DNA of 33,664 bases from Bacteroidota bacterium. GTDB taxonomy: Bacteria; Bacteroidota; Bacteroidia; Palsa-948. Within the stretch, counting starts at the first letter, position 1. Each line of letters starts with the position of its first letter. The translations under genes were made by a program, and so were the position numbers. Below are positions 24,032 to 30,598 of the stretch, in pieces. Below the pieces are notes generated by a model, which saw only the letters and a list, made by a program, of their open reading frames with translations, searched no databases and was not told the DNA's origin. The stretch lies in assembly GCA_023251675.1 (NCBI GenBank), contig JAHEYJ010000020.1:1-33664 (forward strand), in the 5' to 3' direction.

Positions 24032-26380
24032 TCAGTTCACTTTTAGTATTTTGGTTACAAAAGTTTTGCTACCATCTTCATTGGAGCAAAAAACCAAATA
24101 AACGCCTGAACGCGCATTTTCTCCTTTAAAGTTCTTTCCGTACCAAATGGCCTGGCCGCCGAGCGCTTTTGTCTGGTAAACAAGCCCGCCGCTTATATCG
24201 GTGATTTTTACGTTTGCATTTTCAACCAGTCCTGTTATAGCGATTGGCCCATCGTAGCCGGGCTGTACCGGGTTTGGAAAAACATAAACATCCGTGTAAT
24301 CGGTCAGCCCTTCAGTTGCATCATTTCTATAGGATATGATTCCCTCCACCGTTCCGAAGAACACTTCACCGGTTTTGGGGTTGATTAAAATGGATCTTAT
24401 CTCATTTGATAGAAGGGGGCTGTTATCAACTGTAAAATGTTGGATCTGCGTAGTCCCGTCGCTCGACATTAAATAGACTCCTGAGTTCATCGTACCTATC
24501 CATTTCCGGTTCGCGCCATCAACTGCAATGCTGGTTACCACTTCAGTTTCCAGAAGTAATTGTGTATGGCCGTCTTGCTCAATGTATATTTGTTGTGCTT
24601 CGCATCCGGCAGATGAAAATACCTGGTCAGGGCAGTAAAATACAGCGATCCCTTTATCCGTACCGACCCATATTTCACCGTCTTTATCTTCCGCCAAGCA
24701 TTCGACTTCACTGCTTGGAAGATTTCCTTTTCCTGCTCCGGCAATCAGTTTTTTCTTTTTGTCGTCACCGGTACTCCAGGTTCCGTTTTCATCAAAAACC
24801 AAGATGCCTCCGCCCCGGGGCAGGACCATCCATTTCTGGTTGTACTGGTTAATAATGATTTGCCCGATTGTAGGGGTCGGTATAATCCCTGAGAAATTAA
24901 ATGAATCCCAGCTTCCATCCGCTTTACGGACCACCAGCGGGTTATTAGCATAACAATTGGTCATCCATAAATTTCCATCTTTATCATAGGTCATATCGAA
25001 TACCCCCACCCAATGATTGGGAGCATCGCCGCGTGACTGTAAGCCGCTGTTGGTTTCGTTCCAGAGGTTTGTTAAAACACCGCTCCTTGTTTCAACTAAT
25101 CCCGCTCCCAGCGTGCTTAAATACACATGGTCCTTATCTGCAGGATCGATTGCAACTGAAATAACATCTCGCAACGTATCGGGGTTTGTCAGTTGGGTTA
25201 TGCTGGACCACTCTTCATTTCTGAATTTATACGCTTCTGCGAAATTGTAGGTACCAACCCATAGGTCACTTCTGTCGCCGGGAGCCACCCATAGATCACT
25301 TCCTGACATGAACATAGAATAAACTTTTGAGGCATTGGGCCCATTGGGAGTAAAACCCTGAGCGCCATTCCAAACGCCATAGTTTTTTGAAAGGCCATTT
25401 ATATTATCTGCTATCCAGATCACGTTCGTGTCGCCTGCATCAACAATGACCTGGTGCGGATCCATTACATAACCTCCCGTTTGATAAGATCCGATTATTG
25501 TACTGATTGTGGTTGAAGGGTTAAAAATATTAACGTAACCGGAATAGGCAAGGAGAAGTTTGTTGTTTCCGATCTCGATCTTTTTCAATGGGGAAATGGA
25601 GTCGATAATCAACTTAGACCATAGGGTGCCGTTATATACATAAGTGGTATCCTCACGCCACGCCCCGGTCATGAGATTTTTCGAAAAGTTTGCATATACT
25701 TTTCCGTTATATGAACCTACGGTATTGTAAATGCCTTTAGGAAGTGATGAAAATTTATTCCAGGAGTTGAAATCGGCAAGGTTAGGAGAAGAAAGGGAAG
25801 CGCTGTATACCCCGGAATCGGTTGCTGCGTAAAGATTATTGGCATCAGAAGTAATATCCCGCACATTCATATAGCCGCCATTTACTCCTATGTAATAGGT
25901 TTCCTTTACTTCTCTTTTATCCATGTCTAAAACAACGATCCCAAATCCGCAGGCGAGATAGGCCAGTTCATTTCTGAAGTGGATATTGTTGATCGTTTTT
26001 TTTGCAGTGATCAGGAAACGCTTTATGTCGGATATATTATAAATTGAATTTCCATTTACCAGGTCAATGTTCGCATTTTTATAAGCGATAAGAAGGGTGT
26101 TGTTGTAATAATTATAACGGATCGTATTTACGCCCACATCCGACAATCCGGATATTTTTGAAAGCCGGTCCATTGAATTGTCATATTTTTCGAGCCTGAA
26201 TATTCCGCTTTCGGTTGCGCAAAAAACCATGTCATTATTCTGAGCAACGGAGATGCCCCTTTTATAGGATAGATGATCTCTCCACTGCCCAATGGCGAGT
26301 TGAGCGATGCCATGTTCTCCCATAAAAAACGAAGCAAGTAAGAGGGCAGAGGTGCAGATTTGTTTCAAATGATTCATCAC
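24032..26380 (-). CDS. porZ: Type IX secretion A-LPS delivery protein PorZ
   Basis: A 782-residue exported protein (signal peptide through about residue 26, HGIAQ). IGQWRDHLSYKRGISVAQ and many two-component-regulator-type propeller blades follow (VFCATESGIFRLEKYDN, GEIWVGTDKGIAVF, RKWIGTMNSGVYLM). A type A C-terminal sorting domain ends it: VYVFPNPVQPGYDGPIAI, VKITDISGGLVYQT, ARSGVYLVFCSNEDGS. Two beta propellers plus this domain is the PorZ architecture. Family knowledge: PorZ sits with PorU at the surface and delivers A-LPS to the sortase. ATG at 26380 is followed by a second ATG; either start keeps the signal. It lies 45 bases upstream of the M1 aminopeptidase, probably the same transcript. 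Confidence 0.9.
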   Translation of the reverse strand: MMNHLKQICTSALLLASFFMGEHGIAQLAIGQWRDHLSYKRGISVAQNNDMVFCATESGIFRLEKYDNSMDRLSKISGLSDVGVNTIRYNYYNNTLLIAYKNANIDLVNGNSIYNISDIKRFLITAKKTINNIHFRNELAYLACGFGIVVLDMDKREVKETYYIGVNGGYMNVRDITSDANNLYAATDSGVYSASLSSPNLADFNSWNKFSSLPKGIYNTVGSYNGKVYANFSKNLMTGAWREDTTYVYNGTLWSKLIIDSISPLKKIEIGNNKLLLAYSGYVNIFNPSTTISTIIGSYQTGGYVMDPHQVIVDAGDTNVIWIADNINGLSKNYGVWNGAQGFTPNGPNASKVYSMFMSGSDLWVAPGDRSDLWVGTYNFAEAYKFRNEEWSSITQLTNPDTLRDVISVAIDPADKDHVYLSTLGAGLVETRSGVLTNLWNETNSGLQSRGDAPNHWVGVFDMTYDKDGNLWMTNCYANNPLVVRKADGSWDSFNFSGIIPTPTIGQIIINQYNQKWMVLPRGGGILVFDENGTWSTGDDKKKKLIAGAGKGNLPSSEVECLAEDKDGEIWVGTDKGIAVFYCPDQVFSSAGCEAQQIYIEQDGHTQLLLETEVVTSIAVDGANRKWIGTMNSGVYLMSSDGTTQIQHFTVDNSPLLSNEIRSILINPKTGEVFFGTVEGIISYRNDATEGLTDYTDVYVFPNPVQPGYDGPIAITGLVENANVKITDISGGLVYQTKALGGQAIWYGKNFKGENARSGVYLVFCSNEDGSKTFVTKILKVN

Positions 26381-26662: not shown

Positions 26663-26676
26663 CGGATACAGTTATT

Positions 26677-26729
26677 GGTTAATGGTTAATGGTTAATAGG
26701 TGAAGCCCAGTTAACAATTAACGATTAAC
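26677..26729 (+). repeat. Inverted heptamer repeat between tRNA genes
   Basis: Three tandem GGTTAAT units (26677-26697) are answered by an inverted arm of three ATTAAC-like units at 26710-26729 (GTTAACAATTAACGATTAAC). The two arms could form an imperfect hairpin. Confidence 0.65.
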
Positions 26730-26739
26730 TTTGAAGAAT

Positions 26740-26815
26740 GCGGGCGTGGTGGGTCCCGATAGCTATCGGGATGGTAGACATATCCCGACGTTACGTCTGG
26801 ACGCCGCAAAGCATG
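26740..26815 (+). pseudogene. Broken tRNA-Leu copy carrying a palindrome
   Basis: Three blocks are identical to the intact tRNA-Leu that begins at 26844: GCGGGCGTGGTGG, GGTAGACATA and TCTGG. A near-match CGCCGCAA-A-GCATG follows. The bases AATT of the D loop are replaced by a 20-base palindromic insert, the anticodon region CCAGACTTAGGA is replaced by TCCCGACGTTACG, and the T arm and 3' acceptor strand are missing. It cannot fold or be charged as a tRNA. Confidence 0.82.
26754..26771. repeat. Perfect 18-base palindrome inside the tRNA-Leu remnant
   Basis: TCCCGATAGCTATCGGGA equals its own reverse complement. The start of the same motif (TCCCGA) reappears at 26783-26788 at the second break in the remnant. 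Confidence 0.9.
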
Positions 26816-26843: not shown

Positions 26844-26925
26844 GCGGGCGTGGTGGAATTGGTAGACATACCAGACTTAGGATCTGGCGCCGCAAGGCAT
26901 GGGGGTTCAAGTCCCTCCGCCCGTA
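26844..26925 (+). tRNA. tRNA-Leu, anticodon TAG
   Basis: The acceptor GCGGGCG pairs with CGCCCGT (last pair G-T). The anticodon stem CCAGA/TCTGG holds loop CTTAGGA (anticodon 26878-26880). There is a short variable arm of class II type (CGCCGCAAGGCAT) and T arm GGGGG-TTCAAGT-CCCTC. The discriminator is A and CCA is not encoded. Confidence 0.95.
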
Positions 26926-26940
26926 CAGGTTGAACAAACA

Positions 26941-27197: not shown

Positions 27198-28529
27198 ATG
27201 GATATTGTTAAGGAAAACGTTGACGATTTGAATGCTGTGCTTAAGGTGAAGATCGCTCCGGCTGATTATACCGAACGCTACAATACCGCGCTGAAAAAGT
27301 ACCAGAAGAAAGTGGATATGCCGGGTTTCCGCCCGGGAAAAGTTCCGGTGGACATGGTGAAAAAACGTTTCGGCAAGCATATCCTTGTTGAGGAGATCAA
27401 CGATATGCTTTCAGAATCCATTCATAAATACATTACGGATAACAAGATCGATATTCTTGGCAACCCGCTCCCGAAAGAGGATAACCACATCGATTTCGAC
27501 CACCAGACCGAATTTGAATTTCAATACGAGGTTGGACTGGCTCCGAAAATGAACGTTGAACTTTCTTCAAAAGATAAGTATTCATATTATACAATAAAGA
27601 TTGATGATGCCCTTATCGACAAGAACGTTGAGTACATCCGCCGGAATTACGGGCAGGTCATCCACCCGGATTCTTCTGAAGAAAAAGATGTGCTGATCGG
27701 TGATTTTACGGAAGTGGATGCACAAGGGGTTGTAGTACCCGGAGGCGTTTTCAAAACTACACTTCTTTCAATTGAAAAAATAACCAACGCTGAGAATAAA
27801 AAGAAACTTATTGGCCTTAAAAAGGATGACAAGGTTATACTCACGAACCTTGCAGATGATGCAGCTTATTTTTTTGAGATACTTGAACTTCCTGCTGATA
27901 AACTGAACGGGCTTTCCCTTCAGTTTACACTCAAAAATCTCAGCCGCATCGCCCAGGCGGAACTGAACCAGGAATTATTTGACAAATTATATGGTCCCGG
28001 TAAAGTAAACAACGTAGAAGAATTCCGGAATAAGATCCGCGAAGAAATCTCGGTTATGCACGTAGCCGACAGCGACCGCAAGTTCATGAATGAAGTGGTG
28101 GAGTCGCTGATGAAAAAGGCGAACCTCACTTTGCCCGAAAACTTTTTAAAGAAGTACCTGTATCTCACCAATAAGGAGAAGACGTCCATGGAGCAGGTGG
28201 AGAAAGAATATCATTCTTATTCCGATGCCCTGAAATGGCAGCTGTTGGAAAATCATCTTCTGAAAACAAACAACATTGCAGTTCCTGCCGAGGAGGTGGA
28301 TGCTTATATCACGAACCTGGTAAAAATGAATTTTGCCAAGCGCGGCGTTCCTGCCACTGAAGAACAAGTGAAGGAGCAGGTGAAGAAAGTCATTTCCGAT
28401 GAAAAACAGATCCGCAATGCCTACGACCGGTTGTACGATCAGAAATTAATTGAACTTTTTAAAAATACATTTACGTTAGAAAAGAAAGAACTTCCGTACG
28501 AGGAGTTCTTCAAAAATCCTAATTCCTAA
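27198..28529 (+). CDS. tig: Trigger factor (ribosome-associated chaperone)
   Basis: A 443-residue chaperone that meets nascent chains at the ribosome exit tunnel. The ribosome-binding loop is MPGFRPGKVPVDMVKKRFGK (41-60), within the N-terminal domain. The central region (about 155-250) corresponds to the FKBP-like domain but is diverged (DVLIGDFTEVDAQG, LIGLKKDDKVIL), so prolyl isomerase activity is doubtful, as I expect for this phylum. The C-terminal arm region is helical (EEFRNKIREEISVMHVADSDRKFMNEVVESLM, ENHLLKTNNIAVPAEEVDAYI). It is directly followed by clpP (19 bases) and clpX, the classic folding/degradation order. Confidence 0.94.
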   Translation: MDIVKENVDDLNAVLKVKIAPADYTERYNTALKKYQKKVDMPGFRPGKVPVDMVKKRFGKHILVEEINDMLSESIHKYITDNKIDILGNPLPKEDNHIDFDHQTEFEFQYEVGLAPKMNVELSSKDKYSYYTIKIDDALIDKNVEYIRRNYGQVIHPDSSEEKDVLIGDFTEVDAQGVVVPGGVFKTTLLSIEKITNAENKKKLIGLKKDDKVILTNLADDAAYFFEILELPADKLNGLSLQFTLKNLSRIAQAELNQELFDKLYGPGKVNNVEEFRNKIREEISVMHVADSDRKFMNEVVESLMKKANLTLPENFLKKYLYLTNKEKTSMEQVEKEYHSYSDALKWQLLENHLLKTNNIAVPAEEVDAYITNLVKMNFAKRGVPATEEQVKEQVKKVISDEKQIRNAYDRLYDQKLIELFKNTFTLEKKELPYEEFFKNPNS

Positions 28530-28548
28530 ATCTTTAATCCTATAAATT

Positions 28549-29247
28549 ATGTTCGATCAAAACGAATTTCGCAAATACGCAACCAAACATGTGGGCATCA
28601 GCAGCCTGAACTATGAACGGTATACTTCCATCAGCAATGCTGCTATTCGGAACGACTCCTACATTTCTCCAACGATCATCGAGGAACGACAGCTGAACAT
28701 TGCCACCATGGACGTGTTCTCCCGCCTGATGATGGACCGGATCATTTTCCTGGGCGTTCCCATCAATGATTATGTGGCGAATATTATCCAGGCGCAGCTT
28801 CTGTTCCTTGAGTCTGCCGATGCCAAAAAAGATATTCAAATTTATCTCAATACTCCCGGCGGTTCAGTTTATGCCGGTTTGGGAATTTATGACACCATGC
28901 AGTACATCGCTCCGAATGTGGCGACCATCTGCACCGGCATGGCAGCATCCATGGGCGCTGTATTGATGTGTGCAGGGGAAACAAAAAAACGCAGCGCACT
29001 TCCTCACGCACGGGTAATGATCCATCAGCCCCTCGGCGGAGCAGAAGGACAGGCATCCGATATCGAGATCACTGCACGCGAGATCCAGAAGCTGAAAAAG
29101 GAATTGTACGAGATCATTGCAAAACATTCCGGCCAGCAATACGATAAAGTGTGGAAAGACAGTGACCGCGATTACTGGATGACCGCGCAGGAAGCAAAGG
29201 AATACGGAATGGTGGATGAGATCTTAATAAAAAGCAAAACAAAATAA
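28549..29247 (+). CDS. clpP: ATP-dependent Clp protease proteolytic subunit
   Basis: A 232-residue serine protease subunit forming the tetradecameric chamber. The catalytic triad is S134 in CTGMAASMGAVLM, H159 in MIHQPLGG and D208 in DSDRDYWMTAQEA. LNTPGGSVYAGLGIYDTMQYI lies at 100-120. The N-terminus has about 30 more residues than E. coli ClpP before the conserved region (SYISPTIIEERQLNI), consistent with a processed propeptide. It follows tig and precedes clpX. Assignment firm. Confidence 0.96.
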   Translation: MFDQNEFRKYATKHVGISSLNYERYTSISNAAIRNDSYISPTIIEERQLNIATMDVFSRLMMDRIIFLGVPINDYVANIIQAQLLFLESADAKKDIQIYLNTPGGSVYAGLGIYDTMQYIAPNVATICTGMAASMGAVLMCAGETKKRSALPHARVMIHQPLGGAEGQASDIEITAREIQKLKKELYEIIAKHSGQQYDKVWKDSDRDYWMTAQEAKEYGMVDEILIKSKTK

Positions 29248-29251
29248 AGTT

Positions 29252-29320
29252 CAGATAACAGATAGGTAAAGATTTTCGGATAACAGTCATCTGTAAATCC
29301 GAAATCGATCTGCTATCTGT
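29252..29320 (+). repeat. Imperfect palindrome between clpP and clpX
   Basis: ACAGATAG (29258-29265) pairs with CTATCTGT (29313-29320), and GATTTTCGGAT with ATCCGAAATC inside it. It fills most of the 103-base gap. It could fold in the clpP-clpX mRNA, but no T-run follows, so it is not a canonical terminator. Confidence 0.55.
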
Positions 29321-29350
29321 ACAACAAAAGGGGGTAACTGAAAATTTATT

Positions 29351-30598
29351 ATGGCTAATCCTAAAAATGTAAAATGTTCATTCTGCGGGCGCGACCAGCA
29401 GGATATCAATGTAATGGTTTCCGGGCTTGACGGCCACATCTGCGATCATTGCGTGGAACAGGCGCACCTGGTGGTGAAGCAGGAACTGAAGGCAAAGGGC
29501 GGAAAGTCGGCTCATTTTGTACTGAACCTCATCAAACCGGTGGAGATCAAAAAACACCTGGATGAATTTGTGATCGGCCAGGATGATGCCAAAAAAGTTC
29601 TATCCGTCGCTGTTTACAATCATTATAAACGCGTGCTTCAGAAACCTAAACGCACCACGGCAAAGGACGATGTTGAAATAGAAAAATCAAATGTTATCCT
29701 CGTCGGCGAGACCGGAACAGGAAAAACACTGATGGCACGAACCATCGCGAAGATCCTGAATGTGCCTTTCTGCATGGCAGATGCGACGGTTCTTACGGAA
29801 GCCGGTTATGTGGGAGAAGATGTGGAAAGTATTTTAACCCGGCTTTTGCAGGTATCCGATTTTGATGTGACGGCGGCAGAAAGAGGAATTGTTTTTATTG
29901 ACGAGATCGATAAGATTTCCCGCAAGAGCGACAACCCAAGCATCACCCGGGATGTATCCGGAGAAGGAGTTCAGCAGGGGTTGCTGAAACTGCTCGAAGG
30001 TTCAGTGGTGAATGTGCCTCCGCAGGGCGGAAGAAAACATCCTGAGCAGAAGATGATCCAGATCGATACTTCCAATATTCTTTTTATCTGCGGCGGCGCG
30101 TTTGATGGAATTGAAAAAATGATCGGAAGGAGAATAAAACCGCAGTCGATGGGCTATTCGGCATCTAAAGAAGGCGATTCGATCGAACGTGAGAATATTC
30201 TTCAGTACATTGCTCCCCAGGATCTGAAAAAATTCGGATTGATACCGGAGCTGATCGGCCGGTTGCCGGTCATTACGTATTTGTCTCCGCTGGATGAAGT
30301 AGCGCTCCGGAAAATACTTACCGATCCGAAGAATGCGCTCATCAAACAATACATGAAACTGTTTGATATGGATGGCGTGAAACTTTCATTCGATGACGAT
30401 GCGTTGGATTTTATAGTAGAAAAAGCAGTGGAGTTCAAATTAGGTGCACGCGGGCTCCGTTCTCTCTGTGAAGGCGTGATGACCGATGCCATGTTTGAAA
30501 TTCCTTCTGAAGGCAAGACGAAAGATCTTCATATCACGCTTGACTACGCGAAGAATAAACTTTCCAGAAGTAAATTGAAACGACTCAAGGCTGCTTAA
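29351..30598 (+). CDS. clpX: ATP-dependent Clp protease ATP-binding subunit ClpX
   Basis: A 415-residue AAA+ unfoldase that feeds substrates to ClpP. The N-terminal zinc-binding domain has C9, C12, C31 and C34. Walker A is GETGTGKT (119-126) and Walker [11 protein letters not shown] (D184, E185). The ClpP-docking IGF loop of E. coli corresponds to M267-G-Y here (SMGYSA). Substrate loop and sensor motifs ([28 protein letters not shown], with the sensor-2 Arg) are intact. Last gene of tig-clpP-clpX; a palindromic repeat begins directly at its stop codon. Confidence 0.97.

Follow-up and report, generated by a model that had tools for sequence, protein, structure and literature searches.

An 18-bp palindrome dispersed in Bacteroidota replaces three bases and recurs in broken tRNA copies

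Results and Discussion

A broken tRNA-Leu copy interrupted by a perfect palindrome

We found that the 18-bp perfect palindrome TCCCGATAGCTATCGGGA (hereafter P) is dispersed in genomes of the Bacteroidota, where it recurrently replaces three bases at preferred target sites and is associated with broken copies of tRNA genes (hereafter ghosts), one of which lies in the DNA analysed here, a stretch of 33,664 nt (the window). Because P is dispersed and recurrently takes the place of three bases in ghost loops, we regard it as a tiny mobile DNA rather than a local accident. With a probability of roughly 60%, P is a short mobile palindrome of the Bacteroidota which inserts by a three-base replacement at G-ANY-T, and the ghosts are redundant tRNA copies that were hit.

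The second tRNA-Leu(TAG) copy in the window is indeed a broken one. The ghost (26740..26815, plus strand, as are all features of this locus) represents the 5' two thirds of a tRNA copy and starts with block 1, GCGGGCGTGGTGG (26740..26752), which is identical to nt 1-13 of the intact gene and spans the acceptor 5' strand and the D-stem 5' side. A single additional G at 26753 is followed by P in the D loop (26754..26771), so that G and P stand for the AAT of the intact gene. Block 2, TGGTAGACATA (26772..26782), comprises D loop and D stem 3' side, and behind it a second hairpin of 19 nt, TCCCGACGTTACGTCTGGA (26783..26801), a near-palindrome with 8-bp arms and one mismatch, occupies the place of the whole anticodon arm CCAGACTTAGGATCTGG. 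Block 3, CGCCGCAAAGCATG (CGCCGCAA-GCATG, 26802..26815), corresponds to the variable-arm region with one mismatch; the ghost has neither T arm nor 3' acceptor strand. Within the window, the 14-nt and 11-nt blocks occur in the ghost and the intact gene and nowhere else. ARAGORN and Rfam both call the intact tRNA-Leu (anticodon TAG, 26844..26926); the ghost is called by neither and lacks a foldable cloverleaf that tRNA models recognise.

A preliminary description of this locus, made from the window sequence, had already noted the perfect palindrome in the D loop and the replaced anticodon arm, both of which we found, with small corrections. Of its three blocks identical to the tRNA, block 3 has one mismatch, and its distance of 104 bases to the intact gene holds from the start of the ghost, the gap from the ghost end being 28 nt. 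It had also suggested that both interruptions are one element type, possibly inserted twice. The two do share a broad class, that of TCC...GGA hairpins, but their sequences differ; because the second hairpin is a different sequence of which no other copy was found in the window and the loci examined, a double insertion of one element is unsupported.

Directly upstream of the ghost lies TAACTTTG (26726..26733), which by direct reading matches TAnnTTTG, the consensus of the Bacteroidota -7 promoter element, and may function as such; no such match is present just before the intact gene. In the sister loci TAnnTTTG stands in the matching place, ahead of their sole tRNA-Leu(TAG). As the preliminary description had advised, we compared sister genomes: five congeners each carry one tRNA-Leu(TAG) and no ghost, so the ghost was either gained in this genome or lost in the congeners. 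An AT-rich tract with repeated GGTTAAT / AATTAAC units (26672-26735) is located just before the ghost, and a related tract occupies the equivalent place in congener G004 (L045). The downstream genes (27198-30598) show Pfam matches to trigger factor, ClpP and ClpX, while the upstream minus strand (24032-26380) matches PorZ of the type IX secretion system.

Copies and dispersal of the palindrome

Shuffled windows give 0.01 matches to P at ≤3 mismatches, so a chance occurrence in the window is unexpected. Pattern searches of the source genome, of the kind proposed in the preliminary description, yielded 27 exact copies of P compared to 0 for the reversed control, and 73 copies of the looser form TCCCGA..TCGGGA compared to 2; the palindrome is thus present elsewhere in the genome. 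Most of the P-bearing genomes that we tested from further families of the Bacteroidia have 5-53 copies, and some congeners 0-1. P shows both dispersed copies and empty orthologous sites, as a short mobile palindromic repeat should. A search of 2.9 million viral contigs for phage carriage gave no match to P-bearing ghosts, and our literature search found no published description of the P sequence or of the ghosts. In locus L066 a copy of P (at 536) lies close to where an apparent reading frame begins; judged by eye, this frame stays open, with I-P-I-A-I-G added (net +15 nt).

tRNA ghosts across the phylum

Further cases lie in the source genome itself: tRNA-Leu(GAG) is preceded by two tandem ghosts, and the 3' half of a tRNA-Met is represented by ghosts whose T loop contains P. 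A screen of 395 genomes of the class for P followed by TGGT gave 14 matches, most of them ghosts before an intact cognate tRNA. Extending the search for P in D-loop context to GTDB genome contigs yielded 70 stretches with 77 sites, all from Bacteroidota and including type strains such as Crocinitomix catalasitica ATCC 23190 and Pedobacter and Aequorivita species. By a strict script at least 64 of the 77 sites have an intact cognate tRNA within 700 nt, located downstream in 55 (median distance 62 nt) and upstream in 9; several of the other 13 are ghosts by eye. The 64 cognate-paired sites represent 15 tRNA types, and T-loop ghosts with P were found in several families. Judged from the flanks by eye, 6 of the 27 P copies in the source genome and 7 of 8 in G221 lie inside tRNA ghosts, far above the genome share of tRNAs, generously set at 0.5%. 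The suspicion voiced in the preliminary description, that palindromes enter tRNA genes, therefore applies far more widely than guessed, to ghost loops across the Bacteroidota; the behaviour is milder than the word drastic used there implies, as the tRNA copies struck are redundant ones, usually with an intact cognate tRNA alongside.

The source genome is assembled in 250 contigs, which could point to a local rearrangement or an assembly artefact specific to this fragmented genome. As the same kind of structure is present in type-strain isolates and the arrangement recurs in many independent genomes, assembly error is very unlikely, and for the phenomenon as a whole this explanation is refuted, if not for the single window locus.

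Several further ghosts are of note. Several ghosts lie behind a tRNA-Leu(CAA) at L112 (G221 C45), with P or variants of it occupying more than one loop. In L064, L080 and L113, from three families, tRNA-Met-like ghosts carry a second palindrome family (TCCGTCAGCTGACGGA, TCCGTCGGTTGACGGA, TCCGCCAGTTGGCGGA) at nearly one position, behind the anticodon loop. A loose pattern for other palindromes at the D-loop position retrieved mostly chance matches.

Replacement of three bases at preferred sites

An empty paralogue lies within 600 nt of 64 sites, and comparison with it shows that P replaces exactly three bases in 53 of these sites, seven in 6 (five of them Cyclobacteriaceae) and 4-8 in the rest. 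The replaced triplets are mostly A-N-Y, corresponding to A14-R15-Y16 in D loops and A58-N59-Y60 in T loops. The D-loop search patterns fix TGGT after P, so the three-base rule is partly selected for there; this constraint does not apply to T-loop and orthologous sites. One orthologous site reads CATGCTG[P]TTGTTTCAGCAT in G123 and CATGCTG-AAC-TTGTTTCAGCAT in four congeners, from which we infer that P is derived in G123 and replaced AAC. At 41 of 79 non-tRNA sites P is flanked as G[P]T or its complement A[P]C (p = 4.4e-18), an enrichment which argues that insertion is sequence-targeted, roughly to G-ANY-T. The target-site duplication expected of a MITE is absent, 3 nt being lost instead. The window copy departs from the three-base rule by its one extra G.

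In L126, L131, L143, L146, L180 and L183, mostly Cyclobacteriaceae, P replaces the seven D-arm bases GCTCAGC. We also considered that P might enter the loops of pre-existing hairpins and rejected this for the 82 sites analysed (4.62 spanning pairs compared to 4.51 in the control, p = 0.77). Single P sites in terminators and REP-like hairpins are striking.

Extent of the ghosts and their relation to duplication

The 44 5' ghosts are 91-100% identical to the intact tRNA from mature nt 1 to the D stem, and identity drops to background within about 7 nt on the leader side and about 5 nt beyond the D stem; ascertainment does not affect the left boundary, while the search pattern partly determines the right one. 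Outward of P the ghosts are complete; toward the intact gene they are truncated.

Scans blind to the insert recovered six independent partial 5' tRNA duplications, five of which have a hairpin exactly at the D-loop triplet: P in G005 and G009/G091, a P variant in G193, the hairpin TCCCGATGAATAATCGGGA in G060 and yet another hairpin in G174. The sixth, in G373, has none. These few cases point to a link between partial tRNA duplication and hairpin insertion, or else to a stabilising effect of the insert on the duplicate. They also favour the main rival to a mobile palindrome, by which one repair or template-switch event both inserts the hairpin into the tRNA loop and locally duplicates part of the tRNA: a hairpin in the D or T loop would be the site of a break or stall, and rescue from the sister copy would leave ghost and intact gene together. 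The one-sided truncation of the ghosts fits this course of events, as does L159, where P is centred in a perfect inverted repeat of the tRNA-Leu D-arm 3' half beside the intact gene, as expected from template switching; this repeat looks like a strand-switch product. However, insertions of P far from tRNAs show no duplication, full-length P-bearing tRNA copies exist (L146, L183 and L185), and the insert-blind control comprises six lineages only. We therefore hold a one-event origin to be possible, though distinctly the less probable reading. Simple insertion into pre-existing duplicates, for its part, accounts neither for the rarity of hairpin-free partial duplicates nor for the end of ghost homology at nt 1 of the mature tRNA.

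A possible role for the ghost

Ghosts are often found right behind TAnnTTTG-like promoters, and an orthologous P-bearing ghost is common to five Pedobacter species. Together with the conservation of tRNA nt 1-13 in the ghosts next to a leader sequence at background, this could indicate a functional leader in which the ghost with P insulates or regulates folding and processing of the downstream tRNA. In folding predictions the native acceptor stem scored 0.41 with P compared to 0.31 with the empty triplet (p = 0.004) and 0.24 with a shuffled insert (p = 0.0002); the loci are not independent of each other. The ghost, however, lowers native acceptor pairing from 0.93 to this mean of 0.41 (0.06 in the window) and by this measure looks harmful rather than helpful; the predictions suggest that it competes with the tRNA acceptor strand and that P relieves this only in part. 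Since P is in addition mostly located away from tRNAs, we consider a leader function improbable.

Integrative elements use tRNA genes as attachment sites, and their integrases leave a tRNA fragment beside the intact cognate tRNA; partial tRNAs have been described beside prophages (PMC3119063). A ghost could accordingly be the displaced fragment left by such an element. Ghosts are, however, mostly 5' fragments, and with a spacing of 33-416 nt between P and the tRNA (median 62 nt; in the window 28 nt separate ghost and gene) there is no room for an integrative element; neither an element nor an integrase gene was present between intact tRNA and fragment. P is furthermore dispersed outside tRNAs, and the viral contigs contain no such ghost. 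Spacing and the copies outside tRNAs largely refute an origin as integrative-element remnant, to which we assign a very small probability.

A model for insertion and survival

In the mobile-palindrome reading that we prefer, P would insert by replacing three bases at G-ANY-T, with a net gain of 15 nt and no target duplication, and tRNA loops would supply suitable triplets, A14-R15-Y16 in the D loop and A58-N59-Y60 in the T loop. A hit on a sole tRNA copy should be lethal, and this lethality would shape the survivors; hits would hence persist in redundant neighbouring copies, which may erode afterwards. In the window, P would thus occupy the D loop of a spare 5' tRNA-Leu(TAG) copy whose anticodon arm has been replaced by a second TCC..GGA hairpin and whose 3' end is lost, function being retained by the intact gene 28 nt downstream. 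Movement could be due to an enzyme acting on single-stranded or hairpin DNA, and ghost formation and insertion may be linked. On the G[P]T strand the P hairpin would gain a G.T pair, and this could label one of the strands for an enzyme that acts on single strands. A more far-reaching version, which we put forward tentatively and rate well below the simpler one, is a phylum-wide 18-bp element that moves by hairpin transposition, swaps three bases at G-ANY-T, has one strand marked by the closing G.T pair and couples its entry into tRNA loops to a duplication that restores an intact tRNA.

If a mobile palindrome is indeed the correct reading, Bacteroidota carry a mobile DNA of very small size whose insertion follows a clear rule (three bases replaced at G-ANY-T), and a class of tRNA fragments otherwise readable as prophage scars would be explained. 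The tRNA ghosts would constitute dozens of insertion events with the empty copy alongside, and because of this pairing the insertion chemistry and the moving enzyme are directly testable in cultured strains.

Comparison with known repeats and a candidate transposase

Of the features that define REPs, RPEs and MITEs, P lacks those tested for this purpose, namely the GTAG or CGTC tags and target duplication. GTAG-type REP elements with RAYT (Y1/HUH) transposases are short dispersed palindromes without coding capacity, mostly intergenic and probably mobile (PMC3733652). P resembles them in all these respects, but is a perfect 18-bp palindrome with three-base replacement, a bias to tRNA loops and no Y1 tie found; GTAG occurs within 10 nt of P at only 8 of 82 distinct sites. 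CGTC-type REPs and Rickettsia palindromic elements are gene-entering palindromes with no known transposase (PMC3733652), which P resembles in entering genes, as in L066 with its apparently open frame. In contrast to these, P is just 18 bp long, recurs in tRNA D and T loops and shows no CGTC tag (CGTC within 10 nt at 6 of 82 sites). Functional parallels to P exist in Haloquadratum and in Volvox organelles. SMR-A small mobile repeats of Haloquadratum are, like P, mobile repeats without transposase and without target duplication and insert in palindromes, but they are about 110 bp long, have terminal inverted repeats and target mobile elements rather than tRNAs (PMC3119063). In Volvox organelle DNA, nested short palindromes insert in each other and, as does P, in RNA-coding regions; these hairpin repeats have other sequences, and the parts of that report consulted mention no three-base replacement rule (PMC2670323).

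Y1 (HUH) tyrosine transposase genes were present in 22 of 24 genomes, and their number does not follow that of P: G004 combines 8 Y1 hits with a single P, and in G375 there are 2 weak Y1 hits for 53 P. This comparison of counts revealed no moving enzyme for P, and four Y1 loci that were examined contain no TCCCGA palindrome. In G019 a Y1 gene and one P are about 180 nt apart.
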